NCBI GenBank assembly: GCA_027484655.1
Contig: JAIXSM010000028.1
Location: 62,001-126,000, forward strand
Origin: Hyphomicrobiales bacterium
GTDB lineage: Bacteria; Pseudomonadota; Alphaproteobacteria; Rhizobiales; Beijerinckiaceae
Direction: 5' to 3'
Length of the DNA stretch: 64,000 nt
Shown here: piece after piece, positions 4,847 to 62,111 of the stretch
How the letters are laid out: every line of letters starts with the position of its first letter
Numbering within the stretch: the first letter of the stretch is position 1
The notes under the pieces: generated by a model
Databases searched by the model: none
The model's input: only the letters and a program-made list of their open reading frames with translations
Told to the model about the DNA's origin: nothing
Made by a program: the position numbers and the translations under genes

Positions 4847-4934
4847 CTCGCATCACTATTGTCAACATTGCTTGTCGCAATTAGTCTCCTGTCAGGCAGC
4901 TGGAGCGCCAGTGGCGACAGGGAGCTTGAGCGGA

Positions 4935-6494
4935 ATGAAGGCTGAGCGCCATGTCGTGGTCGTGGGGGCAGGCGTCGGCGGACTGATGGCCGCGCTAATC
5001 CTCGCGGGGTCCGGGCTCCGCGTCACGCTTCTTGAACGCGCCGCAACGCCCGGCGGCAAGATGCGCCAGCGTTTCGACCAGGGCCTCGCGATGGACGCGG
5101 GCCCGACGGTCTTCACCCTCAAGCGCATCTTCGAGGAAGCCTTCGCAAGCGTGGGGCTGGACTTTGACGCCTGCGCGCCCTCGCGACGGGCGAGCGTGCT
5201 CGCGCGCCATGCCTGGGATGACCGCGGGCGCTTTGATCTCTTCGCGGACCTGGACAGGTCGGCGGACGAAGTGGCGCGTTTCTTCAGCAAAGCGGACGCC
5301 GACGGCTTTCGCCGCTTCGCCGCGGACAGTGCGCGCGTCTGGCGCACACTTGAGCGTTCCTTTGTAAGAGCGCCAGCGCCGCGCTTCTCCAGCCTCGTGC
5401 GCGGAGCCGGGCTGAGCGGGCTCTCGGATCTTCTCGCCACCCGCCCCTTCCAGACCCTCTGGAACGCGCTGGGGGATTACTTCCCTGATCCGCGCCTGCG
5501 GCAGTTGTTCGGCCGTTATGCGACCTACTGCGGCTCCTCGCCGTTCCAGTGCCCGGCGACACTGATGCTCGTCGCGCACGTGGAGCAGGATGGCGTCTGG
5601 ATGATCGACGGCGGCATGCATCGCCTTGCGCAAACGCTCGCCGAACAGGCCGCCGCGAAAGGCGCGTGCGTACGCTATGGCGCGCACGTCGAGCGCATTA
5701 CGACAAGCCGCTCGGGCGCACAGGTTGAACTCGCGAGCGGCGAGGTTCTGACGGCCGACGCCGTCATCTACAATGGCGATGTGAGCGCGCTTGGCCAGGG
5801 GCTGCTCGGCGATGCGGTTCGCAAGGCGGCGCCCGCCACCGCCCCGGAGAAGCGCTCACTCTCGGCGATCACATGGACGCTTGCGGCCCGCACACGGGAT
5901 TTTCCGCTCGTGCGCCACAACGTTTTCTTCTCGCAAGATTACAGCAGCGAGTTCGACGCGGTGCGCCGCGGCGGCCTCATCGATGACCCCACCGTCTACG
6001 TCTGCGCGCAGGATCGCGGCGACGACGACGACGTGCGCGACAGCCCGGAGCGGCTGCTGATGCTCGTCAACGCGCCCGCGACCGGGGATCGTCGCGCCCT
6101 GTCACATGAGGAACTTGCGACATGCGCCGCCCGAACGATGGATCGACTGACAGCCTGCGGACTGAGGTTGGAGAACGAGCCGACCGCGCTTCAGGCGACG
6201 GCCCCGCAGGACTTCGAGGCGCTGTTCCCGGCGACGGGCGGAGCGCTGTACGGGCGGGCGTCGCACGGATGGGCAGCCTCCTTCCAGAGGCCGGGCATGC
6301 GCTCGAAAGCGCCGCGGCTGTATCTGGCGGGGGGCAGCGTTCATCCGGGTCCGGGCGTGCCGATGGCGGCCTTGTCAGGCTGGACCGCGGCGAACTGCGT
6401 CATGGCGGACCTGGCTTCAATGCGCCTGTCCCCCGTGATGGGTACGCGTGGTGGTATATCGACGCCCTCGACGAGGACGGCGTCTACGGCCTGA
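4935..6494 (+). CDS. crtD: Methoxyneurosporene/hydroxyneurosporene desaturase CrtD
   Basis: CrtD introduces the C3,4 double bond into 1-hydroxylated acyclic carotenoids. The 519-residue flavoprotein belongs to the CrtI family. It has the FAD-binding stretch VVVGAGVGGLMAA near residue 10, LLERAATPGGKMR, MDAGPTVFT, and the C-terminal AGGSVHPGPGVPMAALSG. The ATG at 4935 has GGAG about 10 nt upstream and begins just before the dinucleotide-binding fold; the frame extends to a TTG at 4872. The last 225 nt or more overlap the crtC frame, and the 3' tail encodes the serine/threonine-rich CrtD ending often seen where crtD runs into crtC. Confidence 0.94.
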   Translation: MKAERHVVVVGAGVGGLMAALILAGSGLRVTLLERAATPGGKMRQRFDQGLAMDAGPTVFTLKRIFEEAFASVGLDFDACAPSRRASVLARHAWDDRGRFDLFADLDRSADEVARFFSKADADGFRRFAADSARVWRTLERSFVRAPAPRFSSLVRGAGLSGLSDLLATRPFQTLWNALGDYFPDPRLRQLFGRYATYCGSSPFQCPATLMLVAHVEQDGVWMIDGGMHRLAQTLAEQAAAKGACVRYGAHVERITTSRSGAQVELASGEVLTADAVIYNGDVSALGQGLLGDAVRKAAPATAPEKRSLSAITWTLAARTRDFPLVRHNVFFSQDYSSEFDAVRRGGLIDDPTVYVCAQDRGDDDDVRDSPERLLMLVNAPATGDRRALSHEELATCAARTMDRLTACGLRLENEPTALQATAPQDFEALFPATGGALYGRASHGWAASFQRPGMRSKAPRLYLAGGSVHPGPGVPMAALSGWTAANCVMADLASMRLSPVMGTRGGISTPSTRTASTA

Positions 6495-7339
6495 CGATCA
6501 TCGCCTTCGTCGGCAGCGTCTTTTCTCCCTATTACAAATGGGCGCGGCGGGGCGGCGGCGGCGCAGACCCGATGAACCACTGCGCGCTCAACGTCGCGCT
6601 CTATGGCCCCAGACACCGGCGATGGGCGATGACGGAACGGGGCGCAGGCGTCTGCGCGCGGGACGTCGATACGTTCGCCATCGGCCCCAGCGCGCTCACC
6701 TGGCGCAGCGATGCGCTGGTCATCGACATAGACGAGATTACTGCGCCATTCCCGCGCCGGCTGCGTGGTCGTGTGACTGTCCGCCCGCGCACAATGTTCG
6801 GGACCGTGTTTGACCTCGACGGACAACTGCGCCACCGCTGGAGGCCCATAGCCCCGGTGGCGGATGTTGAGGTGGACATGATGCATCCGGGACTGCGCTG
6901 GCGCGGCCTGGGATATCTCGACCACAATGCGGGGGACGAGCCGCTCGAAGCCGGCTTCACCACATGGGACTGGTCACGCGCGCATCATGGCTCCGACGCC
7001 ATTCTGCACTACGATGCGCGTTCACGCGCCGGGACTGATTGCAACCTCGCCCTGAAACTCAAGGCCAACGGCGACATTGAGGCCGTTGCGCCCGTCGCGA
7101 TGACCGCTCTTCCGAAGACGCTCTGGCGTGTGGAGCGAAACGCCCGGTCTGACCTCGCCGCGCCCGCGCGCGTGGCGTCCACGCTGGAAGACACGCCGTT
7201 CTACGCGCGTTCAGTGATCGACCAGCGCGTTTGCGGCCACGCGCTGCGCGGTTTTCACGAGAGCCTTGATCTCGATCGTTTCTGTGCGCCCGTGGTGCAG
7301 GGGATGCTGCCGTTCCGTATGCCGCGTCGCGCCGGATGA
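6269..7339 (+). CDS. crtC: Carotenoid 1,2-hydratase CrtC
   Basis: CrtC adds water across the terminal 1,2 double bond of neurosporene or lycopene, giving 1-hydroxy carotenoids for CrtD and CrtF. The conserved CrtC core begins GYAWWYIDALDEDGVYGLTIIAF and continues with FSPYYKWARR, NVALYGPRHRRWAMTERG and DWSRAHHGSDAILHYD. The 5' end is uncertain. No ATG, GTG or TTG lies close to the core in this frame. The ATG at 6269 gives 356 residues, and the frame is open back to 6122 (405 residues). Either start overlaps crtD deeply. Long and short CrtC forms are both known. Confidence 0.88.
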   Translation: MGSLLPEAGHALESAAAVSGGGQRSSGSGRADGGLVRLDRGELRHGGPGFNAPVPRDGYAWWYIDALDEDGVYGLTIIAFVGSVFSPYYKWARRGGGGADPMNHCALNVALYGPRHRRWAMTERGAGVCARDVDTFAIGPSALTWRSDALVIDIDEITAPFPRRLRGRVTVRPRTMFGTVFDLDGQLRHRWRPIAPVADVEVDMMHPGLRWRGLGYLDHNAGDEPLEAGFTTWDWSRAHHGSDAILHYDARSRAGTDCNLALKLKANGDIEAVAPVAMTALPKTLWRVERNARSDLAAPARVASTLEDTPFYARSVIDQRVCGHALRGFHESLDLDRFCAPVVQGMLPFRMPRRAG

Positions 7340-7393: not shown

Positions 7394-7534
7394 TCAGTCA
7401 TCCTCGCGCCCACGCTCTGCGTCGCGGCGTTTTTTCCACTTGTGGTAATCCCACAACTCGTGCGCGCCCCACGCAATCACGACCAGCGCAAGCAGCGCAA
7501 AATGGAGTGGTTTGGCGTACGCGCCGAGATCCAT
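7394..7534 (-). CDS. 46-residue membrane microprotein coupled to crtB
   Basis: This short ORF begins with an ATG that shares its A with the crtB stop codon (TGATG), so translation is probably coupled. The product has one hydrophobic helix (HFALLALVVIAWGA) followed by an aromatic and basic stretch (HELWDYHKWKKRR) and an acidic tail, which suggests a single-pass membrane protein with its C-terminus inside. I do not recognise a family. As the last gene of the P450-ATP-grasp-crtB operon it may help assemble or place carotenoid enzymes, but that is only inference. Confidence 0.6.
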   Translation of the reverse strand: MDLGAYAKPLHFALLALVVIAWGAHELWDYHKWKKRRDAERGREDD

Positions 7535-8631
7535 CAGACAGCCTTATCGGGACTTGTGGCGAAACCGCCCTGCTCCGCTTCGCGGAGCCTTTGAAACAAC
7601 TCCACAGCGCGAATGAGCCGGGCGGAGAACGAACGATCCGGCTGTTCACGCGCGCCATCGGAAGCGATGCGCACAAGGTCCGCGGCTTCAGCCAATGGCG
7701 GGTGTGGCGCGCCTTTGCGCGCGATGAGCGAAGAGACCATCGCGGAGGCGACCAGCGCAAGCTTGCGGCGCTTGGAGACCACCGCGCGACGCGTGACGCT
7801 ATCAAGCCCGTTGCGCCGCGTTTGTGCGCCAATTTCCGCGTAGATTCGCCGCGCCGCCCAGATCGCCGGTCGCACATCGGCCGGCAACAGGGCGATGCCA
7901 TGCTCCGCGCGGTGGTAGAGGCGATCAGCCTCCTCCAGCAGGCGCTGCGTGACGCGGGCGATTTGCGGGCACGGCACAGGATTGGCAAGCCACGCCTCGG
8001 GATCAACGCCTTCCGCGCGCAGCCATTCGCGCGGGAGATAGAGCCGACCCGCGCGGGCGTCGTCCCCCACATCCCGGGCGATGTTGGTCAACTGCATCGC
8101 CACGCCAAGATCGCTTGCGCGGGCCAACGCCTCGGCGCTCCGCACGCCCATGAGCAGAGTCATCATCACCCCGACCGCGCCGGCAACGCGCATACCGTAG
8201 GCGCGCAGCTCCGAGATCGTTTCGTAGACGCGGTGCTCGGCATCCCACGCGAATCCTTCCACCAGCGCGGCCGGCGCCTCGATCGGCAACGGGTGGCGCG
8301 CGAGCAGGTCCGCGAACGCGCGCTCGACAGGTCCGCACGCCGTCGCGCCGGCGTAGAGCGCGTGCAACCGCTCGCGAACCGCGGCGACGGCGGGCGCGGT
8401 GTTCGCAGCGCCATCCACGAGATCGTCGGCCACCCGGCAGAAGGCGTAAAGCGCGTAAACATCCGGGCGCAGCCGCTTCGGCAACAGCAACGAAGCGGCG
8501 TAGAAAGACTTGGATCCGTCGCGCAGGAGAGCGAGACAGAATTCGAGATCCCGCGCGCTGGCGGGGCGGTGACTCGCGGCCGGCCCACAATCGCGGGGCC
8601 TCCTCGCCAACTCCAAGCCAAGATCACCCAT
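7534..8631 (-). CDS. crtB: Phytoene synthase CrtB
   Basis: CrtB joins two GGPP molecules into phytoene, the first committed carotenoid step. The 365-residue protein has both aspartate-rich substrate motifs, DDLVD at 69-73 and DVGDD at 187-191. The family stretches SKSFYAASLLLP, YAFCRVADD and AMQLTNIARD are also present. The frame is open far upstream; the ATG at 8631 with GGAG 8 nt before it fits the family N-terminus. crtB is separated from crtI, which is unusual, and follows an ATP-grasp gene and a P450 gene in one operon. Confidence 0.95.
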   Translation of the reverse strand: MGDLGLELARRPRDCGPAASHRPASARDLEFCLALLRDGSKSFYAASLLLPKRLRPDVYALYAFCRVADDLVDGAANTAPAVAAVRERLHALYAGATACGPVERAFADLLARHPLPIEAPAALVEGFAWDAEHRVYETISELRAYGMRVAGAVGVMMTLLMGVRSAEALARASDLGVAMQLTNIARDVGDDARAGRLYLPREWLRAEGVDPEAWLANPVPCPQIARVTQRLLEEADRLYHRAEHGIALLPADVRPAIWAARRIYAEIGAQTRRNGLDSVTRRAVVSKRRKLALVASAMVSSLIARKGAPHPPLAEAADLVRIASDGAREQPDRSFSARLIRAVELFQRLREAEQGGFATSPDKAV

Positions 8632-8663
8632 GGAAGTCGCTCCTCGTGTGCTTACGTCGCATT

Positions 8664-9833
8664 TCAGGCTGCGGATCTTGCGGAAGGCCAGGCGGACCCG
8701 CTCGCAACGGCCCCGCCCTCTTCCCTCCAGAGGATGTCCCGGGAGGCCGCCTCCCCGAACGAAACTCGCCGCGCCCGGGAGGCGGAAATGATCGGCCATG
8801 CGGTCCATGGCATACCGATCAGCGGCCAGGGATCCGACGCCGACCAGGTCACGTCCGGCGTCCGGAAGAGGTTGGCCAGATTGCGTCTGAACGCGGGCCA
8901 CTGGCCGAAACGCCCCTGCGTTTCCGTGAGGCAGGCCCAGAACTGCTGGAGCCGACGCTCGGGGCGCAATCGCACCTGCTGGCGCGACTGCATGATCGCG
9001 GGCGCAAGATCTTGCGTCATCATGAAGTGGACGCCGCTTGTCAGCCTTGGGTTGCACTCGATGCCCCAGGGCGTCCCCGCGTCATCCACGATGAAATCGA
9101 ACGATATGAAACCTGTGAACCGCGTGGCCGCGACGAAAGCCTCCACCCAGCGCAGGATCGGCGGATCATCCACGCGCTCAAAGGCCACCGCAACCGTGCC
9201 GGACATCACGAAACCGCGATAGATCGCGCATCCCTGCATCACGCCCTCATGCGCCAGCGCGCAGGCGCTGCGCTCGGCGCCCGGCACGAAACGCTGCACC
9301 ACATCGTCAGGGCCTGCATCAATCGGCGCGCCAGCCTTGAAGCGCCGCACGCCGCCGCCTGCGCAGCCATGGCGGGGCTTCACAATCACGTCGCCGGTCG
9401 CGCTGATCGAAGCGGACGCCGGCGTGCCGCCGATAGCGCTGTCGGGAACGTTGAGCCCCGCCGCGCGCGCAACGTCGACAAAACCAGCCTTGTCATGCAG
9501 CGCCAGCAATTCAGCTTGCGGCATGGCGAAAACCCGCACACGCGGATCGACCCGGCCATGAAGGGCGGAGACGTAGAGAATCTCTTCCGAGACCGGCAGT
9601 ACGAGATCCACGTTCTCGCGCGCGATGATGGCGGCGAGATCGTCGAGATAGCGCGCTGGCGACTCGGCCGGCGGCGCAACCTGGAAACTCCGCGCAACCG
9701 ACCTTGAGGCGCCGACGAGATGGCGCCTGTGGGGATCAGCCACAAGCACGCGCCCGCCCGCTCTTGCGAAGGATCGCGCAAGATCAAGCCCCTTGGGCAG
9801 CCGCCCCAGCGTCAGCAGCACGGTTCCTGTCAT
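8664..9833 (-). CDS. ATP-grasp superfamily enzyme in the carotenoid operon
   Basis: ATP-grasp enzymes activate a carboxylate with ATP and ligate it to an amine, thiol or similar group. This 389-residue protein begins MTGTVLLTLGRLPKGLDLAR, resembling a Rossmann-like pre-ATP-grasp domain. It has the ATP-binding lysine segment VIVKPRHGCAGGGV at about 149-162, a hinge-like QRFVPG at 180-185, and the metal-binding motif IECNPRLTSG at 258-267. The ATG overlaps the P450 stop as ATGA, and the next gene is crtB, 32 nt on. The substrate is unknown. Its place suggests a role in carotenoid or lipid tailoring. The superfamily assignment is firm; the role is not. Confidence 0.8.
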   Translation of the reverse strand: MTGTVLLTLGRLPKGLDLARSFARAGGRVLVADPHRRHLVGASRSVARSFQVAPPAESPARYLDDLAAIIARENVDLVLPVSEEILYVSALHGRVDPRVRVFAMPQAELLALHDKAGFVDVARAAGLNVPDSAIGGTPASASISATGDVIVKPRHGCAGGGVRRFKAGAPIDAGPDDVVQRFVPGAERSACALAHEGVMQGCAIYRGFVMSGTVAVAFERVDDPPILRWVEAFVAATRFTGFISFDFIVDDAGTPWGIECNPRLTSGVHFMMTQDLAPAIMQSRQQVRLRPERRLQQFWACLTETQGRFGQWPAFRRNLANLFRTPDVTWSASDPWPLIGMPWTAWPIISASRARRVSFGEAASRDILWREEGGAVASGSAWPSARSAA

Positions 9834-11218
9834 TGCGCGGCCTTGCGCACGTGGCACATGATCTGGCGCACAGGTCGCGTGGTGAGTCGCGCGGCCGGCT
9901 CCACCGACTGACCGGACGCAACATCGAAATCAAAGCGCCGCGCAAGGTCGGCGATGATGAGCACCGCCTCCACGGTGGCGAACGCAGCCCCCGCGCACAC
10001 GCGCGGACCAAGCCCGAAGGGAATGTAGGCGCCGGGCGTCATCTCGCTTTCGCGCTCGGGCGAGAAGCGATCCGGATCGAAGACGTCTGGAGCGACCCAA
10101 TACCGGCGGTGACGATGGAGCGTCCATGGCGCCACGATCACAAGCGCCCCGCGCGGGACGCGCCGGCCACCCAACGTCGTCGCCTCCAGCGCGACGCGCG
10201 GCAAAAACGTGATCGGCGGATACAGACGGATCGTTTCGCGGAACACGTTGCGGGTGAAGGTCATCGCGCGCACGTGCTCGAAGCCGATCGGGCCGTCGCC
10301 GGCAATCGCCTTCACCTCACGGCGGATGCGCGCCACCACGTCCGGGCGTCGCGCGAGAATGAAAAACGCCCACGTGAGCGCGCTGGCGCTGGTCTCATGA
10401 CCTGCCAGAAACAGCACGCCGAGCTGGTCGATCAACTCCTCGCGCGTGAAGGGCACGCCCTGCGCGTCCTGCGCCATCATCACGTTGCGGGCAATATCGT
10501 CGAAATTGGCGCCGCCGGGCCCCATGTGGGTGGCGAGCATGTCGCCAAGATGGGCGCGGATGGTGTCGCACGCGTCAAGAACCTCGCGGCGCTGGGGAAT
10601 TTTCGCCCATGCCTTGTCCATGATGAGGCGCCGGATCTCCACCTGCGCGACGCTGCGCTCAAACAGGGTGAAGGCGTCGAACACGACGCGTGAGGCCTCA
10701 TGCTCCAGGTTCGTCGAGAACACGGTGCGGCAGATCACATCCGCCGTCAGGTGCGACATGGCGAGGTCAAGGCTGAACGGAGCGCCCGATTCGGCCTGCG
10801 AATCGAGGAACGCCGTACATGCCGCAACCCCCTGCTCCATGGCCGGAAACGCGCGGTTCACGCGCATCATGCTCAGCGCCGGATCGAGCATCTCGCGCTG
10901 ACGCCGCCACGTGGCGCCTGACGAGACGAAGATGCTGTCCCCGATCAGCGGCTCCAGCGCGTTCACCATGAGATCGGATTTGGGAAAGATCTCATTGGGA
11001 TCGGCAAGCACGTAGCGCACCAGATCAGGCCGGTTGACCAGCAACGTGGTGCGTCGCGACCATCCCAGCGGACCCAGTTCCATGCGGTAGGCGGCGGCCG
11101 GCAGCAGCGAAAGAAGGTTGCCGTCCCCGCGCAGGGCGGCGCGCGCCAGCGACAGCAGGGCGGGCAGCGGCGTCGGGCGGGGCGGCGAATACATGGGCGA
11201 GTACATGGGCGCGTTCAT
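9830..11218 (-). CDS. Cytochrome P450 in the carotenoid operon
   Basis: This is a 462-residue soluble-type P450. Visible motifs are the I-helix oxygen-binding AGHETSA (272-278), the K-helix ETIR (328-331), and the haem loop FGLGPRVCAG (401-410) with Cys408 as the expected thiolate ligand. The N-terminus carries a repeated MYSP segment and no clear membrane anchor. It is the first gene of the operon P450-ATP-grasp-crtB-microprotein, and a perfect PpsR-type box lies 35 nt upstream of its start. No ferredoxin or reductase gene is adjacent. A carotenoid or fatty-acyl substrate is possible but unproven. Confidence 0.88.
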   Translation of the reverse strand: MNAPMYSPMYSPPRPTPLPALLSLARAALRGDGNLLSLLPAAAYRMELGPLGWSRRTTLLVNRPDLVRYVLADPNEIFPKSDLMVNALEPLIGDSIFVSSGATWRRQREMLDPALSMMRVNRAFPAMEQGVAACTAFLDSQAESGAPFSLDLAMSHLTADVICRTVFSTNLEHEASRVVFDAFTLFERSVAQVEIRRLIMDKAWAKIPQRREVLDACDTIRAHLGDMLATHMGPGGANFDDIARNVMMAQDAQGVPFTREELIDQLGVLFLAGHETSASALTWAFFILARRPDVVARIRREVKAIAGDGPIGFEHVRAMTFTRNVFRETIRLYPPITFLPRVALEATTLGGRRVPRGALVIVAPWTLHRHRRYWVAPDVFDPDRFSPERESEMTPGAYIPFGLGPRVCAGAAFATVEAVLIIADLARRFDFDVASGQSVEPAARLTTRPVRQIMCHVRKAAQ

Positions 11219-11252
11219 GCAAAATGCTTCCTTGTTTTTTGTCCCCGTCGGC

Positions 11253-11270
11253 TGTCAAATAAACTGGACA
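11253..11270. promoter_or_regulatory. PpsR/CrtJ-type box before the P450 operon
   Basis: A perfect TGT-N12-ACA lies in the 78-bp divergent space between the P450 gene and the membrane-protein gene at 11297. Read towards the P450, the left half contains a TTGACA at 11253-11258. The box suggests that both flanking transcription units belong to the photosynthesis regulon. Confidence 0.6.
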
Positions 11271-11296: not shown

Positions 11297-12037
11297 ATGG
11301 AGCACACAATTTTCACCGCGCTCGTGGCGGCGCACATCGTCACGGGTTCGACGGCGGCGATCGCGTTCTGGATTCCTGTCGTCGGCAGAAAAGGCGGCGC
11401 CGCGCACCGGATGGCGGGGCGGATCTTCGTGGTGGCGATGCTGTTCACCGGCGCGTTCGCCGTGGGCATGAGCGGATTGACGATCCTTGATCCGATGGGC
11501 ACCCATCCGCATCTCGTCGGACTGTTCGAGCCTGCATTCGTGCGCGGCGTGTTCGGCTGGCTGATGCTTCACCTTGGCGTATTGACGATCAATCTCGCGT
11601 GGTACGGCTGGCTGTGCGCCCAGCATCGCGCGCAGCGCGCGCCCATGCGCGAGTGGCGCAACATCGCCCTGCAACCCCTCCTGCTCGCCGCTGCGGTGAA
11701 TTGCGCCGTGCAGGGCGTTCTTCTGAGAGAGCCGCTGCTGCTGGGGCTCGCGGTGATCGGCGTGGCGACGGTCGGCACCAACGTGTGGTTTCTCTACAAG
11801 CCGGTCGCCGGCCCGAAGGACTGGCTGAAGGAGCACCTCAAGGCGCTCGTGGGGGCCGGCATTTCGGTCTACACCGCGTTCATGGCGTTCGGCTCCGTGC
11901 GTCTGCTGCCGGAGTTGGCGCTCAATCCGGTCATGTGGGCCATTCCGGCCGCCAGCGGCATAGCCTTCATTCTCTGGTACTGGCGCACGATTGACCGGCA
12001 GACCGCGCTTCATCGACGGCCTCCCGCCAAGGCCTGA
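11297..12037 (+). CDS. Polytopic membrane protein of the photosynthesis cluster
   Basis: The product is about 246 residues with roughly seven or eight hydrophobic segments. The pattern GGAAHRMAGRIFVVAMLFTG resembles the histidine-arginine motif of DUF2306-like membrane proteins, which I offer only as a weak family match. The ATG at 11297 is preceded by AGGA; the frame also contains a TTG at 11273. The gene lies between divergent P450 and convergent crtI, and its last 28 bp overlap the crtI 3' end on the other strand. Its function is unknown; the PpsR-type box upstream suggests a role in photosynthesis or carotenoid metabolism. Confidence 0.7.
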   Translation: MEHTIFTALVAAHIVTGSTAAIAFWIPVVGRKGGAAHRMAGRIFVVAMLFTGAFAVGMSGLTILDPMGTHPHLVGLFEPAFVRGVFGWLMLHLGVLTINLAWYGWLCAQHRAQRAPMREWRNIALQPLLLAAAVNCAVQGVLLREPLLLGLAVIGVATVGTNVWFLYKPVAGPKDWLKEHLKALVGAGISVYTAFMAFGSVRLLPELALNPVMWAIPAASGIAFILWYWRTIDRQTALHRRPPAKA

Positions 12038-13545
12038 AAGGACGCGGGGTCCGGAACCAGCCCCTCAACGACCTTCGCCGAGGAAATGACGCCGGGCAAA
12101 CCGGCGCCGGGGTGCGTTCCCGCGCCGACCAGATAGAGGCCTTCGACCTCCTCGCTCTTGTTGTGCGGACGGAACCACGCGCTCTGGAACAGTCGCGGCT
12201 CAAGCGAGAACGCGGCGCCCTTCACCGACAGCAGGCGGTCGCGAAAATCCAGCGGCGTGAGAACGCGTGACGTGACGATGCTCTGCGAGAGGCCCGGCAT
12301 CACGGTTTCCTCAAGCCGTTGCTCGATGCGCTTGCGGTAGGGCTCAGCCATCTGCGTCCAGTCCACGCCGCTGTCGAGATGGGGCACCGGCGCAAGCGCA
12401 TAGAACGCATCGCATCCCGGCGGCGCCAGCGAGGGGTCAGTCATCGTTGGCCGATGCAGATAGAGGCTGAAATCGTCCGCGAGCTTCTTGTCATCGAAGA
12501 TGTCGCGCAGAAGCCCCTGGTAACGCGGCCCCAGCACCATCTCGTGATGGTATACGTCATCGAACCTGCGGTTCGTGCCAAAGTACCAGACGAACAGGCT
12601 CATGGAGTATTTCGCGCGATCAAGCTTCGCGTCGGTCCAGCGCTTGCGTTTGGTTTGCGACAGCAGCGATGTGTAAGTGAACGCCGCATCCGCGTTTGAC
12701 ACCACGATGTCGGCGGGAAGGATCTCGCCGCCTTTGAGACGCACGCCCCGCGCGCGTCCGTTCTCAACGACGATCTGCTCCACCTCGCAGTCAAACAGGA
12801 ATGAGCCGCCGAGTTTTTCGGTGAGGCGCACGAGACCTTTGACGATAGAGCCCGTGCCACCCATGGCGAAGTGCACCTTGTGCAGACGCTCAAGATGGGA
12901 AATCAGGCAATAGTAGGCGGTTGTGGAGAACGGATTACCGCCGATCAGCAGCGGATGAAAGCTGAACGCGATGCGCAGCTTTTCGTTGGTGAAATACTGC
13001 GCGACCTTGCTGTAGACGGACCGAAATCCGCCGAGACGCACGAGATCCGGCGCGGCCGCTATGAGGGCTTTGAACTCGTGGAAGGGCGCGTCCGCCAGTT
13101 CTGTGAAGGCAACGTCATAGATGCTGGCGCTGTCGCGCAGGAAACGCTCGAAGCCCGCCACATCACGCGGCTCGAACCGGGCGACCTCCGCCCGCATCTC
13201 GTCCTCGTCGGCGACACATCGCAGCACTGAGCCGTCATCGAAGCGGATCCGGTAAAACGGATCCATTTCCCGAAGTTCGACGTCGTCGGAGAGCCGCGCG
13301 CCAGCGAGCGCCCACAACTCCTCCAGCAGGTATGGCGCCGTGATGATCGTCGGGCCGGCGTCGAAGGTGAACCCATCCTGCTTGTACACGTACGCGCGGC
13401 CGCCCGGCGCATCCAGCTTTTCAAGGACAGTCACGCGGTACCCGCGCGCGCCAAGACGCACAGCAGCGGCGAGGCCGCCGACGCCGGAGCCTATGATGAT
13501 GGCGTGCGGTCGCCTGTCGTGCGTGCGATCAAAGCCGGCGTTCAT
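12010..13545 (-). CDS. crtI: Phytoene desaturase CrtI
   Basis: CrtI desaturates phytoene to neurosporene or lycopene. The 511-residue flavoprotein has the FAD fold IIIGSGVGGLAAAVRL near residue 17, VLEKLDAPGGRAYV, FDAGPTII, and the C-terminal GAGTHPGAGLPGVISSAK. It starts with an ATGA overlap on the bchO stop, so it is the distal gene of dxs-bchO-crtI. The number of desaturation steps cannot be read from the sequence, but the presence of CrtC, CrtD and CrtF without CrtA in the window points to the spirilloxanthin series. Confidence 0.95.
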   Translation of the reverse strand: MNAGFDRTHDRRPHAIIIGSGVGGLAAAVRLGARGYRVTVLEKLDAPGGRAYVYKQDGFTFDAGPTIITAPYLLEELWALAGARLSDDVELREMDPFYRIRFDDGSVLRCVADEDEMRAEVARFEPRDVAGFERFLRDSASIYDVAFTELADAPFHEFKALIAAAPDLVRLGGFRSVYSKVAQYFTNEKLRIAFSFHPLLIGGNPFSTTAYYCLISHLERLHKVHFAMGGTGSIVKGLVRLTEKLGGSFLFDCEVEQIVVENGRARGVRLKGGEILPADIVVSNADAAFTYTSLLSQTKRKRWTDAKLDRAKYSMSLFVWYFGTNRRFDDVYHHEMVLGPRYQGLLRDIFDDKKLADDFSLYLHRPTMTDPSLAPPGCDAFYALAPVPHLDSGVDWTQMAEPYRKRIEQRLEETVMPGLSQSIVTSRVLTPLDFRDRLLSVKGAAFSLEPRLFQSAWFRPHNKSEEVEGLYLVGAGTHPGAGLPGVISSAKVVEGLVPDPASFQALAGGRR

Positions 13546-14441
13546 TGCGTCTCCTGGGGGAGCACGCCGTGCCGGCGCGCGATGGCGATAATGTGATCTG
13601 TGATGAGGCGTGGCGCTTCTTCGTGGGCCAGGTGCCCAAGGCCGGTCAGTTCGATCACCTCGGCGCCGGGCACAACGCGAGCGACGCTGGCGGCCCTGTC
13701 CGGCGGAACCGTGCGATCCCGATCTCCGACGAGCAGGTAGAGGGGAGCGTCGAGCCGCGGCAGGTCGCCCTCAAGTTCGTGCAAGTCCCAGTTCGCCATC
13801 ATCCGCAGCGTCGCCGCGACATGGGCGGGGTCGGTGGCGAGACGCCGGTAGTGGGCGATCCCTTCATCTGACAGACGAGAGCCGGTCTCCTCGATCAGCC
13901 TTTCGACAGCCCCGGGCCACCCGGCGCGCCAGGCGAACATACGCGGGGCGATGGGGTTCTTGGCCAGCAGGCGCGCAAGGCCCGAGTAAACGGAGGCAAG
14001 CCCGCCGCCAAAAGGCAACAGGGCCGCGTTCACGCCCACGAGCGCGCGCGGCGCCATGTGCTTTTCGATGATCATCCGCGCGCAGATCGCTGCGCCCGCC
14101 GAATGCCCCACCGCAAGCAACGGCTGCACGCCAAGGCGGCGCAGCATCGCCGCGGTCGCGCGGGCCATGCCGCGAATCGAATACACGCTTGTGGGCCCGT
14201 CGCTGGAGCGGCCCTGCCCGGGAAGGTCCGGCGCAATCACGCGAAACATGGGCGCCAGAAGATGAAACGCCTCGCGCCACGAATGGCTCGAGGCGCCCGC
14301 TCCATGCAGGAGCAGCACCGGCGGTCCCGCACCCGCGATCTGCACGTGCCAGCGAACCCCAGCCGCATCAACGAAGCGGCTGTAGTCCGGGTGCGGCCAG
14401 GGCGGACCGTCAGGTCCCCATTCTGGCGGTGGTGCGTCCAT
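13542..14441 (-). CDS. bchO: BchO, alpha/beta hydrolase linked to Mg-chelatase
   Basis: BchO is an alpha/beta-hydrolase-fold protein usually encoded beside the magnesium chelatase subunits BchI and BchD; its exact reaction is not established. The 299-residue protein has the family start [21 protein letters not shown], the nucleophile elbow GHSAGA, the oxyanion region [13 protein letters not shown], and a C-terminal [11 protein letters not shown] histidine. The start at 14441 lies inside the dxs 3' end (32-nt overlap) and the stop overlaps the crtI start. No bchI or bchD lies beside it, so the gene has moved away from its usual partners. Confidence 0.9.
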
Positions 14442-16302
14442 CGGGCGCCTCTTGGATCATGACGGCGCGCGAACTGCGACGTGGTTGCACGACGCCGCCT
14501 TCGCTGGCGTCAAGTTCCAGGGCCGATAGCGCCGCGCGGGCGATGGCTCCGGAATCAAGCCCCGCGGCCGAGAGCATGGCGCCCGGGCTGTTCTGCTCGA
14601 TGAAGACATCGGGCAGACGCAGGGACCGAAGCTTCAGCCGCCCGTTCATGAGATCGGAATCCGTGAGGTATTGCGCGACCGCTGACGCGAAGCCGCCGGA
14701 AGATCCTTCCTCTATGGTGACAAGCACCCGGTGGCGCAGCGCCAACGCCCGCACGAGATCCTCATCAATCGGCTTGGCGAAACGCGCATCGGCGACCGTG
14801 ACGGAAAAGCCCTCACGCTCGATGCGCGCCGCCGCCGTGAGGGCGTCGCCAAGCCGCGACCCCAGCGACAGGAGCGCCACATCGCGCCCGCGACGCAGCA
14901 CACGCCCCTTGCCGATGGGAAGCACGCGGCCGGTTTCCGGAAGCTCGAGCCCGACACCCTCGCCGCGCGGATAGCGGAACGCAAAAGGCCCGGCATCGTA
15001 TGCTGCGGCAGTCGCGACAGCGTGGGTCAACTCCGCTTCGTCCGACGGAGCCATAACGACCATGTTCGGCAAGCACGTCAGATAGGCCACATCAAACGCG
15101 CCCGCGTGAGTCGGCCCATCGGCGCCAACGAGCCCCGCCCGGTCAATCGCGAAGCGAACCGGCAGCCCCTGGAGCGCCACATCATGGACGATCTGATCGT
15201 ACGCGCGCTGAAGGAACGTCGAATAGATGGCGCAGAACGGCTTCAACCCGCGCGCGGCGAGCCCGGCCGCGAATGTGACCGCATGCTGCTCGGCGATGCC
15301 CACGTCGAAGGTGCGCGTCGGGAAAGCCGCGCCGAATGAATCAAGCCCGGTGCCGCCCGGCATTGCGGCCGTGATGGCCACGACGCGCGGATCCCGGCTG
15401 GCCTGCTCGGTGAGGGCCCGCGCAAACACCTTCGTGTACGAGGGCGGCCCCGGAGGGCTGGGCGCCTGCGCGCCAGTGGCGGCATCGAAGCGCGACACGC
15501 CATGATAACGGTCTGCTGCGGCTTCGGCGGGGGCGTAGCCCTTTCCCTTTATCGTGCGCACATGGACCAGCACGGGCCCGTCGCCCGGCGCGTTCGCTTC
15601 ACGCAACGCGGCCAGAAGAGCCGGCATGTCATGGCCGTCCACCGGCCCCACATACCGCAGACCAAGATTCTCGAAGAGCGTGGACCCGTTCGTTCCGGCG
15701 TCCCCCGAGATGGCGGACAGATGCCGCGACAGAGCGCCCACAGGCGGCGCAATCGACATGTCGTTGTCGTTGAGCACGACGATCATGCGGCTCTTGCTGG
15801 CGCCGGCGTTATTCATGGCCTCATAGGCAAGACCCGCCGACATGGCGCCATCACCGATGACCGCAATGACGCGCTCATTTCCGCCAACCAGATCGCGCCC
15901 CACCGCAAATCCAAGCGCCGCCGAAATCGACGTCGATGAATGGCCGGCGCCGAACGGGTCATAGTCGCTTTCGGCGCGGCGAGTGAAACCCGAAAGGCCC
16001 GAGCCCTGACGGATCGTCTTCATGGAGTCGCGGCGCCCGGTGAGGATCTTGTGCGGATAAGCCTGATGGCCGACGTCCCAGATGACCGTATCGGCCGGCG
16101 TGTCGAACACGTAATGCAGCGCGACCGTCAGCTCGACGACGCCGAGCCCCGCGCCCAGATGCCCGCCAGTGCCCGAGACCACCTCGACCATCTCGGCCCG
16201 AACCTCGTCGGCGAGCGTCTGTAACTGATCTTCGCTTAGCCTTCGAAGATCTGCGGGGCGGCGGATCGCGTCTAGCAGCGGCGTAAAGTGAGTGCGAGTC
16301 AC
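14410..16302 (-). CDS. dxs: 1-deoxy-D-xylulose-5-phosphate synthase Dxs
   Basis: Dxs condenses pyruvate and glyceraldehyde 3-phosphate in the first step of the MEP isoprenoid pathway. The protein is about 630 residues. It has the thiamine-diphosphate motif GDGAMSAG followed by [10 protein letters not shown], the [13 protein letters not shown] segment, and [12 protein letters not shown]. The GTG at 16302 begins [19 protein letters not shown] and has GGGGGAAGG just upstream; ATG codons at 16323 and 16362 are less likely. A Dxs copy inside a photosynthesis cluster supplies isoprenoid precursor under the same control. A PpsR-type box lies 23 nt upstream. Confidence 0.95.
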
Positions 16303-16324
16303 AGGCCTTCCCCCGAATTCCATA

Positions 16325-16342
16325 TGTCCAATCAACTTTACA
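16325..16342. promoter_or_regulatory. PpsR/CrtJ-type box between dxs and cytochrome c2
   Basis: A perfect TGT-N12-ACA lies in the divergent space between dxs (minus) and the cytochrome c gene (plus). One dimer pair here could control both isoprenoid supply and the electron carrier. The sequence match is exact; regulation is inferred. Confidence 0.6.
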
Positions 16343-16418
16343 CACTCCAGCGCATGTGGCAATACGTCTGTACAGTTAGCGCGGCAAGCGAACCGCCGCC
16401 TGCCTGTTGGAGGATCGC

Positions 16419-17989: not shown

Positions 17990-19069
17990 ATGCGCAAGGT
18001 GCGGCTGGCGGCTGCGGTCGCCTCGCTTTTGCTCGCGAGTAGCGTTGGCGCAGTGACGAGCAGCGCCGCGTGGGCGCAGGGCGTCTCTGACTTTTACCGT
18101 GCAAGACCACTCCAGATTGTTGTCGGCTACGGCCCCGGCGGCGGCTACGATGTGTATGCGCGCCTCGTGGCTCGTCACATCGGGCGCCATATCCCCGGAT
18201 CGCCCAACACTGTCGTGCAGAACATGCCGGGGGCGGGCTCCCTCGTCGCTGTCAACTATCTTTACAATACCGCGCCGCGCGACGGCTCGGTGATTGGCAC
18301 GTTTGCGCGCGACATGGCGTTGTCGTCACTGCTGGGCGGCAATCCCAATGTGCGCTTCGACGCGCGAAAGCTCACGTGGATTGGCACGCCCGCGAGCGCG
18401 CGCGACGATCCATACCTGATGTTCGCGCGCAAGGACTCGAAGGTGCGCCGGATAGAGGACGTGACACGGGGCTCCGGTTCCATGGAACTGGTGCTCGGCG
18501 GCACGGGCGAAGGCGCCGCCGGCAATGACTGGGCGGTGCTGCTGCGCGATGCAGTTGGACTGAACATCCGTCTGATTGCGGGTTATCGGGACTCCAGCGC
18601 GCTGTTCCTCGCCGTGGAGCGCGGCGAGATCGACGGACGCTCGCTTGATTACTCGGCTGTGAAATCATCGCGGCCGCAATGGCTCACCGCAGACAGTCCT
18701 GTTCGCGTTGTGCTGCAATTCGGTCGCGATACGCGCCACGCCGATTTTCCGGATGTGCCCCTCGCCCGCGACCTGACCAAAGATCCATCCGTACTCGCGC
18801 TGATCGATCTGGCGGAGGCGTCCAACACGCTCTCGCGCCCGTTTGCAGGCCCGCCGGACATTCCTGCGGATCGCGCAAAAGCGCTCCAGAACGCGTTCAT
18901 GGCCATGTGCGCCGATAAGGACTTCATCGCGGAAGGCGAGAAGTTGCGCGTGGACATATCGCCCGTGAGCGGGCCTGAAGTGCTGAAACTGATCGAACGC
19001 CTGGCTGCTTTTCCGCCCGAGGTGTTCGAGCACATGAAAAAGATCAGGGCGCACGGCAACAAGACGTAA
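17990..19069 (+). CDS. Bug/TctC-family periplasmic binding protein 1
   Basis: Tripartite tricarboxylate transporter substrate-binding proteins capture carboxylates or related small molecules in the periplasm. The 359-residue protein has a signal peptide ending about AAWAQG, then the family start DFYRARPLQIVVGYGPGGGYDVYARL, HIPGSPNTVVQNMPGAGS and GSVIGTFAR. No TctA or TctB gene is nearby. It is the first of three tandem copies and the most divergent of the three. Substrate unknown. Confidence 0.85.
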   Translation: MRKVRLAAAVASLLLASSVGAVTSSAAWAQGVSDFYRARPLQIVVGYGPGGGYDVYARLVARHIGRHIPGSPNTVVQNMPGAGSLVAVNYLYNTAPRDGSVIGTFARDMALSSLLGGNPNVRFDARKLTWIGTPASARDDPYLMFARKDSKVRRIEDVTRGSGSMELVLGGTGEGAAGNDWAVLLRDAVGLNIRLIAGYRDSSALFLAVERGEIDGRSLDYSAVKSSRPQWLTADSPVRVVLQFGRDTRHADFPDVPLARDLTKDPSVLALIDLAEASNTLSRPFAGPPDIPADRAKALQNAFMAMCADKDFIAEGEKLRVDISPVSGPEVLKLIERLAAFPPEVFEHMKKIRAHGNKT

Positions 19070-19120
19070 TCGATGGCGCCCATGTTCGAAAGAGCGCCAC
19101 AGGGGGGAGTAAAGCGAGCC

Positions 19121-20146
19121 ATGACGCGAGCAAAATTTATCGGGGCCGCGCTGCTGGCCGGATCCATCGCGACGCCCGCATCCGCCGACGCCATTGCGGA
19201 TTTCTACAGGGGCAAGACGCTTAACATGATTATCTCGGTGTCCCCGGGAGGCGGCTACGACCTCCTCGGGCGAACCGTGGCCCGCCATATCGCCAAACAC
19301 ATTCCCGGTTCGCCCACCGCAGTGCCGCGGAACATGCCCGGCGCAGGCGGCATTGTCGCCATGAAGCATCTGGCGACCGCTGCGCAGCGCGACGGGACCG
19401 TCATGGGGATCGTTCAAAACAACGCGCCGCTCGAGCCGCTATTTGGCACGCCTGAGGCAGACTATGATCCCACAAAGGTGAGCTGGATCGGCACGCCCTC
19501 CCTTGAAACAGGATTGCTGATTGTCTGGCACACGTCGCACTTCAAAACATTTGACGACGTGCGCAAGCGCGAAATGACGGCGGGCGCGTCTGGCGTCAAT
19601 TCGGCCCCCGCGTTCTATTCCCGCGTGCTCAACGAACTCCTCGGCGCAAAGATCAAGGTGATCGCCGGTTACCCCGGCCAGAACGAAGGCTACATGGGGA
19701 TTGAGCGCGGCGAGCTCGATACTTATGGCGTGACATTCTGGAGTTCGCTCACATCAACAAAGCAGCAATGGCTGCGGGACAACTCGATTCGCATTCTCCT
19801 CCAGTACGGACCGGTGAAGGAAGCGGCGCTGAAAGGCGTTCCCTACGGGCCTGACCTCGTGAAGAGCGAGGAGGACCGTCTGCTGTTCGAAGCCTCATAC
19901 GGACCCTTGAGCCTTGGCCGTCCCTTCCTCGCGCCGCCGGATGTGCCCGCAGACCGGCTTGCCGCGCTTCGCAAAGCCTTCATGCACATGATGGCCGACA
20001 AGGATTTCCAGACGGAAGCCGAAAAGCTGGGACTGCAGGTCGACAATCCGCGCTCGGGCGAACAACTGCAGGCGGAAGTAAACCGACTGTACGCAACGCC
20101 GAAGCACGTCGTCGACCGCCTGCGACGCATCGCCCAGAACAAATGA
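19121..20146 (+). CDS. Bug/TctC-family periplasmic binding protein 2
   Basis: This 341-residue protein starts at an ATG with GGGGGAG about 12 nt upstream and a signal peptide ending PASADA. The mature start ADFYRGKTLNMIISVSPGGG and the HIPGSPTAVPRNMPGAGG stretch are family hallmarks. It is a close tandem duplicate of the next gene: long stretches such as IGTPSLETGLLIVWHTS and MTAGASGVNSAPAFYSRVL are identical. The frame opens upstream at 19073, but that start has no good signal. Confidence 0.85.
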   Translation: MTRAKFIGAALLAGSIATPASADAIADFYRGKTLNMIISVSPGGGYDLLGRTVARHIAKHIPGSPTAVPRNMPGAGGIVAMKHLATAAQRDGTVMGIVQNNAPLEPLFGTPEADYDPTKVSWIGTPSLETGLLIVWHTSHFKTFDDVRKREMTAGASGVNSAPAFYSRVLNELLGAKIKVIAGYPGQNEGYMGIERGELDTYGVTFWSSLTSTKQQWLRDNSIRILLQYGPVKEAALKGVPYGPDLVKSEEDRLLFEASYGPLSLGRPFLAPPDVPADRLAALRKAFMHMMADKDFQTEAEKLGLQVDNPRSGEQLQAEVNRLYATPKHVVDRLRRIAQNK

Positions 20147-20189
20147 GCGCCACTCGTCTGCACCACATATGAGCCCGAACGGAGCCGCC

Positions 20190-21209
20190 ATGCGTTTGAC
20201 AATCAGCAAAGCCCTTCTGCTGGCCAGCTTCGCAACGCCTGCGATGGCCGATCCGATCGCGGATTTCTACAAGGGCCGCACCATCTCCATGACGATCAGC
20301 TCCGCAGCGGGCGGCGGCTACGACACGCTGGCCCGCACGGTGGCGCGCAATCTTCCAAAGCACCTGCCCGGATCGCCCAACATAGTGCCGCGCAATATGC
20401 CCGGCGCCGGCGGTATTGTCGCGACAAAGCATCTCTACACCATGGCGCCGCGGGACGGCACGGCAATAGGCATCGTGCAGAACAATGCCCCACTCGAGCC
20501 GCTCTTCGGCACCAAGGAAGCCGACTACGACCCGACCCGCTTCAACTGGATCGGCACTCCGTCACTTGAAACCGGCCTGCTCATCGTTTGGCATACGTCG
20601 CAGTTCCGGACGATGGAGGATGTGACGAAACGCGAGATGACGGCAGGCGCGTCGGGCGTGAACTCCGCGCCCGCGTTCTACTCGCGCGTGCTCAACGAGT
20701 TGCTGGGCGCAAAGATAAAAGTCATTGCCGGCTACCCGGGACAGAACGAAGCCTACATCGCCATCGAGCGCGGCGAAATCGATACGTACGGCACAACATT
20801 CTGGAGTTCGTTGACTTCAACTAAGCAGCAATGGCTGCGCGACAGGCTCGTCCGGGTGCTTCTCCAATACGGACCGGTGAAGGAAGAAGCGCTGAAGGAC
20901 GTTCCCTACGGACCGGATCTCGTCAAATCCGAAGAGGACAAGCTCCTGTTCCAGGCGGCATACGGCCCGCTCAGCCTCGGCCGCCCGTTCCTCATGCCGC
21001 CAGATACGCCCCCGGAGCGCGTGCGCGCAGTGCGCAAGGCCTTCATGGATATGATCGCCGACAAGGATTTCATGGCGGAAGCTGAAAAACTTGGACTGCA
21101 AATCGACCACCCCCGTTCGGGCGAGCAATTGCAGGCGGAAGTCGAACGTCTGTACCGCACCCCGCCTCACGTGGTCGAACGCCTGCGCCGTATAGCGCAG
21201 GCCAAGTAG
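20190..21209 (+). CDS. Bug/TctC-family periplasmic binding protein 3
   Basis: The 339-residue protein has GGAG 5 nt before its ATG and a signal peptide ending PAMADP. It shares most of its length with binding protein 2, including an identical block around AKIKVIAGYPGQNE and the same C-terminal pattern GLQIDHPRSGEQLQAEVERLY. The two are recent paralogues and probably bind the same or related ligands. A monooxygenase gene follows about 100 nt downstream. Confidence 0.85.
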   Translation: MRLTISKALLLASFATPAMADPIADFYKGRTISMTISSAAGGGYDTLARTVARNLPKHLPGSPNIVPRNMPGAGGIVATKHLYTMAPRDGTAIGIVQNNAPLEPLFGTKEADYDPTRFNWIGTPSLETGLLIVWHTSQFRTMEDVTKREMTAGASGVNSAPAFYSRVLNELLGAKIKVIAGYPGQNEAYIAIERGEIDTYGTTFWSSLTSTKQQWLRDRLVRVLLQYGPVKEEALKDVPYGPDLVKSEEDKLLFQAAYGPLSLGRPFLMPPDTPPERVRAVRKAFMDMIADKDFMAEAEKLGLQIDHPRSGEQLQAEVERLYRTPPHVVERLRRIAQAK

Positions 21210-21315
21210 GCCGTTGCAGGAGGCAGGAAAACCCTTGTACGGTAGAACTTCAGGCTACCGGGGCCATTGAAACCAACGCCGCACAAATTGCGCACTCAGG
21301 GTGGAAGACAAAACA

Positions 21316-22509
21316 ATGCTCAAGGCAGTGCACACCAAGGGCCATGCAAACGCCACCCGCGAGGAACTTCTCGCCCGCGCCGAGGCGCTGATTCCCGTTC
21401 TGCGCGAACGCGCCACGGAGGGCGAGCGACTGCGGCGCTGCCCCGATCAGACCGTCCGTGATTATGTGGACGCCGACTTGCTGCGCGTCTGCCAGCCCTC
21501 GCGCTACGGCGGCTTTGATCTCGGATATGATGTCGCGTGTGAAATTATCCAGACGCTGGCGCGCGGCGACGCATCGCAAGCGTGGGTCTACATGGTTCTT
21601 GCTGACAATCCGCTGAAACTCGCCTCGTACGAGATTGCGGCGCAGGACGATGTGTGGGGCGTTGATTCAACCAAGAAACTATGCGTCGCGGTGTCCCCCG
21701 TCGGCCGCGCCAAAAAGGTCGATGGCGGCGTGCTGTGGACCGGCTCGCATGGATTTTCCAGCGGCATCGACCATGCCGACTGGGTGATGTGCGGCGGCTT
21801 CGAGTATGATGAGAATGGGGTGAAGGGCCGCGGCCTCAGCGCGCTTATGCCCACGTCCGAGGTCAAGCTCATCGACGACTGGAATGTCGTGGGCCTCGCC
21901 GGCACAGGCAGCAAAAGCTTCGAGGTGAAGGACGTGTTCGTGCCAGCGCATCGCTTGCTGGACAAGAAGGCCAACGATGAAGGCCGCTCCCCGGGCGCAT
22001 TGTTCTACACCGCACCCGTGACGCGCCTGCCGCGCGGCGGCGTCTCCGCTGTCAGTTACACCGCAGTGGTCGTCGGCGTGGCGCAGGGATTTTTGCGCGA
22101 ATTTCTCGACGTGACGGGTCCACGCAAATCACGCGGCGAATCGGTTGCAACGAACGTCGCGTTGCAGGCCAGCGTCGGCCAAGCGGCCGCGGAGATCGAG
22201 GCCGCGGAGCGTATGTATCTGGGCGCTATTCGCGAAACCATGCAGACGCTCGCGCGCGGCGAGCAGGTGAGCCTTGAGCAGCACTACCAGGGCAAGCGTA
22301 ACGCCTGCTACGCCGCACAGCTCTGTCTGCAAGCCGTGCAGCGCCTTTACAACATCGCCGGCGGTCGCGCGCTGTTCCTCGACAACCCGCTGCAGCGTAT
22401 GTTCCGCGACTGTTTTGCAGCCGCGGCTCATCATTCGCTGGTCTGGGAGAACGCCGCCGCGGAATACGGGCGTCACGCTCTCGGCGCGCCCAAAGCGAAA
22501 GCGCACTAA
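21316..22509 (+). CDS. Acyl-CoA-dehydrogenase-fold flavin monooxygenase (hydroxylase)
   Basis: The 397-residue protein resembles the oxygenase component of two-component flavin monooxygenases of the HsaA/group D type, which use FMNH2 or FADH2 from a separate reductase. Visible stretches are RYGGFDLGYDVACEIIQTLARGDASQAWVY, LWTGSHGFSSGIDHADWVMCGG and GLAGTGSKSFEVKDVFVP. The first GTG is at 21301; the ATG at 21316 has GGAAGA at good spacing. It begins a co-directional run with two SDRs and a luciferase-like monooxygenase. No flavin reductase is adjacent. Substrate unknown. Confidence 0.75.
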   Translation: MLKAVHTKGHANATREELLARAEALIPVLRERATEGERLRRCPDQTVRDYVDADLLRVCQPSRYGGFDLGYDVACEIIQTLARGDASQAWVYMVLADNPLKLASYEIAAQDDVWGVDSTKKLCVAVSPVGRAKKVDGGVLWTGSHGFSSGIDHADWVMCGGFEYDENGVKGRGLSALMPTSEVKLIDDWNVVGLAGTGSKSFEVKDVFVPAHRLLDKKANDEGRSPGALFYTAPVTRLPRGGVSAVSYTAVVVGVAQGFLREFLDVTGPRKSRGESVATNVALQASVGQAAAEIEAAERMYLGAIRETMQTLARGEQVSLEQHYQGKRNACYAAQLCLQAVQRLYNIAGGRALFLDNPLQRMFRDCFAAAAHHSLVWENAAAEYGRHALGAPKAKAH

Positions 22510-22536
22510 TTTCCAAAACAGGACACCAGACAGACA

Positions 22537-23313: not shown

Positions 23314-23370
23314 ACGCAACAACGACGACGCCGGGAACAAGCGGCGCGCACATACAGGTGAGGAACGCTT

Positions 23371-24165: not shown

Positions 24166-24183
24166 GCGCGGGCGCTGGAGAGA

Positions 24184-25218: not shown

Positions 25219-25219
25219 T

Positions 25220-26023: not shown

Positions 26024-26118
26024 AGTTCCCTCCCGTGTCGATAATGATGAGGGGCTGGCGCCCCTCTGCTATCCCGGTAAGATGCGACGCGACGAACACA
26101 TCGCACAAGGGGGAGGAT

Positions 26119-61907: not shown

Positions 61908-62111
61908 GGCGGCAATAGCGGCCACGGAAAACCCTCGCTCGGCCGAAGATGGCCGCTTTTGTACATAGCGAGAACCCTGACTGCGCGCAAGCGCGTGCGC
62001 GACAACTGCCGAGACTAAAGCTTAACGCGTTGATTTATATGATCTATGCTCTAGCCCTCGCTTTTCTTTCGGTACGGGAGCGGACTAAACTGACGCCCGG
62101 AGATCAGGGCT

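Follow-up and report, generated by a model that had tools for sequence, protein, structure and literature searches.

We analyzed a 64,000-nucleotide stretch of DNA (the window), which corresponds to positions 62001–126000 of its contig in a 3.6-Mb alphaproteobacterial host genome. The first 16 kb of the window are part of a photosynthesis gene cluster (PGC), where the genes follow each other in the order bchX, bchC, a gene for a CrtF-type O-methyltransferase, crtD, crtC, crtB, an ATP-grasp ligase gene, a cytochrome P450 gene, an open reading frame (ORF) designated ORF2306, crtI, bchO, and dxs. The P450, ATP-grasp, and ORF2306 genes, hereafter the cassette, are the subject of this work. We propose that the cassette is a carotenoid-tailoring unit of photosynthesis clusters, which very probably modifies a carotenoid, perhaps by forming an acid group and joining it to another group.

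An earlier note on this DNA had described the P450 and ATP-grasp genes as joined to crtB by an ATGA overlap and a 32-nt gap. The coordinates confirmed this: the ATG of the ATP-grasp gene overlaps the P450 stop codon as ATGA (4 nt), and 32 nt lie between the ATP-grasp gene and crtB. The perfect PpsR-type box that the same note placed before the P450 gene is present as well (Table 1). The feature proved to be larger than stated there; the divergently transcribed ORF2306 belongs to it, and crtI tends to go along. Since crtB, crtC, crtD, crtF (assigned by its O-methyltransferase domain only), and crtI are all in the window, the locus has the gene content of a spirilloxanthin-series cluster, and crtD and crtC as neighbors point to an acyclic, spirilloxanthin-series substrate. 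The spirilloxanthin-series crt clusters of purple bacteria share these genes and PpsR-type boxes with the window. The difference lies between crtI and crtB, where the window has ORF2306, P450, and ATP-grasp; in the cassette-free clusters examined, none of the three is found at this position.

Table 1. Features of the cassette and adjacent carotenoid genes (positions in the window)
Feature	Position	Strand	Remarks
Cytochrome P450, 462 aa	9830–11218	−	PF00067, E 3.3e-71
ATP-grasp ligase, 389 aa	8664–9833	−	PF02655 (ATP-grasp_3), E 1e-9; overlaps P450
ORF2306, polytopic membrane protein, 246 aa	11297–12037	+	Divergent partner of P450
Perfect PpsR-type palindrome TGTCAAATAAACTGGACA	11253–11270		Between P450 and ORF2306
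crtB, phytoene synthase	7534–8631	−	NF045921, E 3.3e-111; PF00494, E 5.3e-75
crtI, phytoene desaturase family	12010–13545	−	TIGR02734, E 5e-187
46-residue membrane ORF	7394–7534	−	Start codon shares one base with the crtB stop codon
crtD and crtC	4872–7339	+	NF045637, E 4.3e-196; NF045922, E 1e-83; limits as ORFs, true starts uncertain

The window contains three perfect TGTC-N10-GACA boxes, located before bchC, between crtF and crtD, and between the P450 gene and ORF2306, versus 0.73 expected. Since 6 of 100 shuffled sequences also reach three, the box count alone is weak evidence. In orthologous ORF2306–P450 intergenic regions (the window not counted, nine duplicate loci dropped, and near relatives not independent), the looser TGT-N12-ACA box was found in 21 of 71 cases, versus 1.9 expected from shuffles, and is thus frequent, not universal. 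A box of this type in the promoter region is the mark of the PpsR regulon, and judged by the sequence the cassette of the window would be a putative member.

Conservation and Distribution of the Cassette

Relatives of the cassette were sought by scanning genome contigs with an alignment of the ligase; a scan with the single protein gave no match. The alignment scan found 226 relatives, and the best 80 named loci were read. The P450 gene adjoins the ATP-grasp gene in 79 of the 80 loci; the remaining locus, L154, is cut by the contig end 81 bases upstream. In 77 loci, a P450 of 55% identity or more immediately precedes the ATP-grasp gene; in L171 it immediately follows, and in L186 the two genes are adjacent and convergent. 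The junction could be measured in 68 loci (three more gave no measure, and nine were without a called pair), and is a 4-nt overlap in 45 and a 1-nt overlap in 8 of them. ORF2306 is present on 69 of the 80 loci, divergent and adjacent in 67 of these, and the other 11 loci have less than 2.4 kb of upstream sequence. A CrtI of the close kind (at least 60% identity) was found on 50 of the 80 loci, and a more distant CrtI on 7 others; CrtD was found on 55, CrtC on 43, CrtB on 29, and bchC or bchX on 14. The module is conserved across orders and classes, and by virtue of this conservation the gene arrangement is beyond chance.

According to the NCBI lineages of their titles, the 80 loci belong to Roseomonadaceae/Acetobacteraceae (35), Sphingomonadales (15), Hyphomicrobiales (11), Rhodospirillales (3), other Alphaproteobacteria (6), Gammaproteobacteria (5), and Betaproteobacteria (2), with 3 unplaced; many are metagenome-assembled genomes (MAGs), some titles look wrong, and the counts follow the titles. 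The cassette is also present in the cultured strains Rubritepida flocculans, Paracraurococcus ruber, Falsiroseomonas stagni, and Novosphingobium fuchskuhlense, and is common to many oxygen-breathing, light-using bacteria. No copy of the P450 was found on plasmids at E 1e-90. Photosynthesis-type genes also occur in MAGs whose records bear the titles Klebsiella pneumoniae, Roseomonas mucosa, Asaia bogorensis, and Rhizobium sp. (L148, L150, L142, and L107, respectively); of these titles, at least Klebsiella is probably mistaken.

The distribution of the cassette was studied in a family sample of 298 genomes and a class sample of 337 genomes. In the family sample, the ATP-grasp gene was found in 15 genomes, a P450 orthologue in 18, and bchC in 93. 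Orthology of the P450 was set at 53% identity or more after a gap had been seen, the next best matches being at 39% or less; a P450 of 50% identity, in genome G105, was found later. The bchC gene is present in 14 of the 15 ATP-grasp genomes (Fisher p 4.5e-7; the exception, G541, is a 78%-complete MAG) and in 16 of the 18 P450 genomes (Fisher p 2.6e-7). ORF2306 was searched for in 80 genomes, a set that left out 17 further bchC genomes without a P450 orthologue, and was found in 18/18 P450 genomes versus 0/62 others, 60 of which have bchC. Since the start of a ligase gene is visible at a contig end in G626, all three genes are probably present in 16 of the 18 P450 genomes. The P450 and ORF2306 look like an obligate pair in the family sample, with the ligase as a usual addition. 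In the class sample, CrtI was detected at E 1e-100 in 47 of 337 genomes, and a close ATP-grasp in the host only; two other genomes have ATP-grasp matches of 31–33%, with no crt gene found nearby.

The genes crtI and crtB are neighbors in four cassette-free loci that were read and in 15 of 16 class-sample CrtI loci (the 16th is at a contig end, and one genome is common to both sets); in the window, the cassette separates them. In three genomes of genus g3, crtI, ORF2306, P450, and ligase genes lie together away from the PGC, at a distance of 90–100 kb in two genomes and on another contig in the third; the 20-kb PGC stretch of these genomes has crtB and no close CrtI. A comparison of L100–L102 with L030, L031, and L033 indicates that crtI left the PGC together with the cassette.

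In a CrtI tree of 29 rows (18 cassette, 11 other), the cassette CrtIs form one clade (98 bootstrap/95 SH-aLRT, one label change), and cassette-free CrtIs from the host's own genus fall outside it. The best trees of BchC (17 cassette and 10 other rows) and BchX (16 and 10) require four and five label changes, respectively, and no bootstrap tree has one clade; for g3, the CrtI rows are those of the cassette locus, whereas the PGC supplied BchC and BchX. The approximately unbiased (AU) test rejects a cassette clade for neither BchC (p 0.35) nor BchX (p 0.09), and descent of the cluster as a whole is therefore compatible with the trees. The reading that CrtI shares the history of the cassette and the chlorophyll genes do not is weakened by these p values, and its part on the chlorophyll genes was given up.

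Properties of the Cassette Proteins

The P450 is a member of its superfamily by profile score (PF00067, 240.9 bits versus a cut-off of 22.8) and by its intact I-helix, ExxR, and heme-cysteine loop motifs (AGHET, ExxR, and FGLGPRVCAG), which are invariant or nearly so in 14 sequences. Its best solved sequence relatives are the CYP97 carotene hydroxylases (LUT5/CYP97A3, CYP97C1), with LUT5 on top. These are, however, plant enzymes that act on ring carotenoids, and the cassette P450 is no closer to CYP97 than two non-cassette P450 controls are. Kinship with CYP97 was considered as evidence of the substrate and rejected, since two non-cassette bacterial P450s are equally near to LUT5. In a Betaproteobacteria-titled MAG (L184, 4071–7615), the P450 is in two overlapping pieces, being either broken or affected by a sequencing error.

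The ATP-grasp protein scores 39.1 bits on PF02655 (cut-off 23.2), and this, together with fold matches and conserved residues, places it in the ATP-grasp superfamily. On NCBIfam PRK06849 it scores 220.5 bits, below the cut-off of 406, and does not belong to that family as defined; all 48 members match PRK06849 below, or without reference to, the cut-off. Residues K115, K152, D246, E259, N261, and R263 are invariant in the 48 sequences, and we take them to be the ATP and metal site. The structural model (pLDDT 92.5) matches PylC (best two entries), followed by PurK-like, CPS-like, L-amino acid ligase, and biotin-carboxylase structures, at 13–21% identity and TM-scores of ~0.5–0.6. PylC and the L-amino acid ligases form a bond between a carboxylate and an amine. 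The cassette protein is predicted to share with them the fold and the conserved lysines, Asp/Glu/Asn, and Arg; it differs in its low identity to them and in being coupled to a P450.

Plasmids hold distant ATP-grasp relatives only (16 records, 27–37% identity). In four of the five plasmid contexts read, the relative is accompanied by KAS-III, F390/CoF-synthetase, MBL, and NAD(P)-oxidoreductase genes, and in the fifth only a GNAT gene stands beside it; unlike the cassette, none of the five has an annotated crt gene or P450. An operon of KAS-III, ATP-grasp, NAD(P)-dependent oxidoreductase, MBL hydrolase, and F390/CoF synthetase genes, mostly with a GNAT gene, recurs on plasmids of Paraburkholderia, Pontibacillus, Rhizobium, and Paenibacillus (L187, L188, L189, and L191).

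ORF2306 is modeled as a bundle of ~7 long membrane helices (pLDDT 91.8). Its histidines 13, 37, 70, and 180 are invariant in 37 sequences; a heme-related role is only a guess. The protein scores 15.3 bits on DUF2306 (PF10067), below the gathering cut-off of 31.6, and thus falls outside the family, which is weakly matched by 11 of the 37 members (E up to 0.01). No fold counterpart was found in PDB (best E 0.3), and no sequence match up to E 1.

The earlier note had counted the 46-residue membrane ORF at the end of crtB as part of the operon. This did not hold up: in 9 of 17 loci that lack the full cassette (L103–L106, L224, L226, L228, L231, and L233), crtB is followed by a similar membrane ORF of 44–61 residues, as it is in 7 of 22 scanned loci of cassette genomes (L021, L026, L028, L029, L100, L101, and L180). 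The microprotein is an ordinary accompaniment of crtB, whether or not the cassette is there.

Possible Function of the Cassette

We consider it highly likely that the cassette is a carotenoid-tailoring module. This view is based on gene order, gene overlap, conservation, co-occurrence, the common clade of cassette CrtIs, and the predicted fold of the ligase. The link to carotenoids drawn in the earlier note is borne out by crt or bch genes on 76 of the 80 loci and by the adjacency of crtI and crtB in cassette-free clusters. The further step proposed there, oxidation of a carotenoid end and ligation of the new carboxylate, fits the folds and known carboxylated carotenoids, its product being conjectural.

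The best explanation of the whole, which we hold tentatively, with belief and doubt nearly in balance, is that the cassette tailors acyclic (spirilloxanthin-series) carotenoids in oxygen-respiring phototrophs by oxidation and ligation. The following account is inferred as regards the carotenoid substrate, the oxidized atom, the acid formed, the nucleophile, the part played by ORF2306, and the regulation. CrtB and CrtI would provide a carotenoid of the lycopene type. Together with the membrane protein ORF2306, the P450 would use O2 to convert a methyl group (of an end group or side chain) to an alcohol, an aldehyde, and then an acid. The ATP-grasp enzyme would activate the carboxylate as an acyl phosphate and join it to an amine, yielding a polar carotenoid for antenna or membrane. 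The PpsR-type box may couple expression to that of photosynthesis genes in the host's lineage. That the cassette oxidizes its substrate to an acid and then ligates it is possible, with doubt the heavier side. In the part of the open literature that was searched, no paper was seen to describe the P450/ATP-grasp/ORF2306 cassette, carotenoid–amine conjugate pigments, or an ATP-grasp enzyme acting on a carotenoid. Carotenoid tailoring affects blue-green light harvesting and the survival of light with oxygen; the ATP-grasp step, if true, would be new to carotenoid chemistry, and a compact, conserved cassette that cultured strains also carry makes the question of carotenoid tailoring testable.

Several known pigments bear on this proposal. 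Gemmatoxanthin of Gemmatimonas phototrophica, 1′-methoxy-19′-oxo-caroten-16-oic acid, is an acyclic carotenoid of a photosystem antenna that bears methoxy, aldehyde, and carboxyl groups, and its oxidizing enzymes are only guessed at (PMC8342508). Roseococcus has a C30 carotenedioate with a diglucosyl ester (PMC12654162), and one Roseococcus MAG (L124) has the cassette. By analogy, these acids may serve as leads, not tests, for the cassette product. The P450 and ORF2306 could supply the missing oxidation steps by which aerobic phototrophs obtain carboxylated antenna carotenoids, producing gemmatoxanthin-like acids, with ORF2306 as membrane electron or substrate partner and the ATP-grasp enzyme, where added, giving a carotenoid–amine conjugate; in this specific form we regard the proposal as rather unlikely. 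A P450 is named in the legend of a gene-neighborhood figure for Citromicrobium (PMC3338782).

A number of observations speak against carotenoid oxidation followed by ligation. No pigment is tied to the cassette. The gemmatoxanthin acid is free and would need no ligase, and the acid reported from Roseococcus is a C30 and not a C40 compound. Elioraea (PMC8781829) and Congregibacter (PMC2654016) make spirilloxanthin, which fits less well. Two genomes, G348 and G417, missed by the earlier note, have the P450 and ORF2306 with no ATP-grasp match and no crt match in the 20 kb read. In G105, the 50% P450 is ~3 kb from crtI–crtB, and ORF2306 was not found. LUT5 was the first match of one and the second of the other of the two non-cassette P450 controls, with similar E-values. 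The earlier note had held that known non-carotenoid roles of the two families in many genomes would refute its reading; for the orthologues, this test came out in favor of the note, whereas ATP-grasp relatives at ~30% identity sit in operons without carotenoid genes. With all 87 CrtI rows, the tree requires four label changes, the exceptions being seven sphingomonad loci with distant CrtI, L171, and L180. The AU results for BchC and BchX are compatible with descent of the whole cluster.

The most likely alternative is that oxidation by the P450 goes no further than a hydroxy, formyl, or keto carotenoid, and that the ATP-grasp enzyme activates a small acid (e.g., an amino acid) for the new hydroxyl, or serves another pathway step. 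The same genomic evidence, i.e., conservation on 80 loci and co-occurrence with ORF2306, fits it, and the occurrence of the P450 and ORF2306 without a ligase in G348 and G417 means that oxidation is of use by itself. Oxidized carotenoids without known enzymes include rhodopinal, the genes for which were wholly unknown according to a 2023 review (PMC10604819). However, the tight coupling of the P450 and ligase genes favors the product of one enzyme being the substrate of the other, and none of the constant neighbors seen was a separate transferase; we regard this alternative as unlikely.

Returning to carotenoid tailoring, two further alternatives question either the substrate or the ligase. 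The cassette may modify bacteriochlorophyll or another isoprenoid, and lie among crt genes only through joint inheritance of the PGC. The presence of bchC in nearly all ATP-grasp genomes and the failure of the BchC and BchX trees to reject common descent with the cassette agree with this, but the cassette adjoins crtI/crtD in most loci and in the three g3 genomes lies with crtI away from the chlorophyll genes, which makes this alternative quite improbable. We likewise think it very doubtful that the ATP-grasp protein is a carboxylase-like or unrelated enzyme, so that only the P450 and ORF2306 matter for the pigment: biotin-carboxylase and PurK structures are among its fold matches and its identity to the listed solved relatives is low, but the best two matches are PylC entries, L-amino acid ligases are near the top, and the overlap with the P450 gene is conserved. 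Lastly, that the genes are chance neighbors, or are decaying without a common role, is hardly credible, for even though most family bchC genomes are without the ATP-grasp gene and the L184 P450 is in two pieces, it is already contradicted by the gene order, the overlap, and the motifs, all of them conserved between different orders and classes.

Other Features of the Window and of Related Loci

CrtB of the window scores 371.6 bits on NF045921, below that model's cut-off of 500. The dxs gene (14410–16362) heads the bchO–crtI genes, the dxs–bchO–crtI order is retained in close relatives, and a TGT-N12-ACA box, TGTCCAATCAACTTTACA, is located at the 5′ end of dxs (16325–16342). In G348, the P450 adjoins an ORF with an N-terminal cysteine motif (L098:11251–12504), which presumably resembles BciB-type vinyl reductases. 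Beside the PGC, the region 17990–26871 of the window contains three similar-sized ORFs, which we take to be of the periplasmic-binding type, followed by genes for an HsaA-like monooxygenase, two short-chain dehydrogenases/reductases, and an SfnG-like flavin monooxygenase; it is likely a degradation island. At 43462–49001, a BarA/TorS-like hybrid histidine kinase gene stands back to back with a gene for a PAS-rich kinase, which is a match to the family of blue-light-activated histidine kinases.

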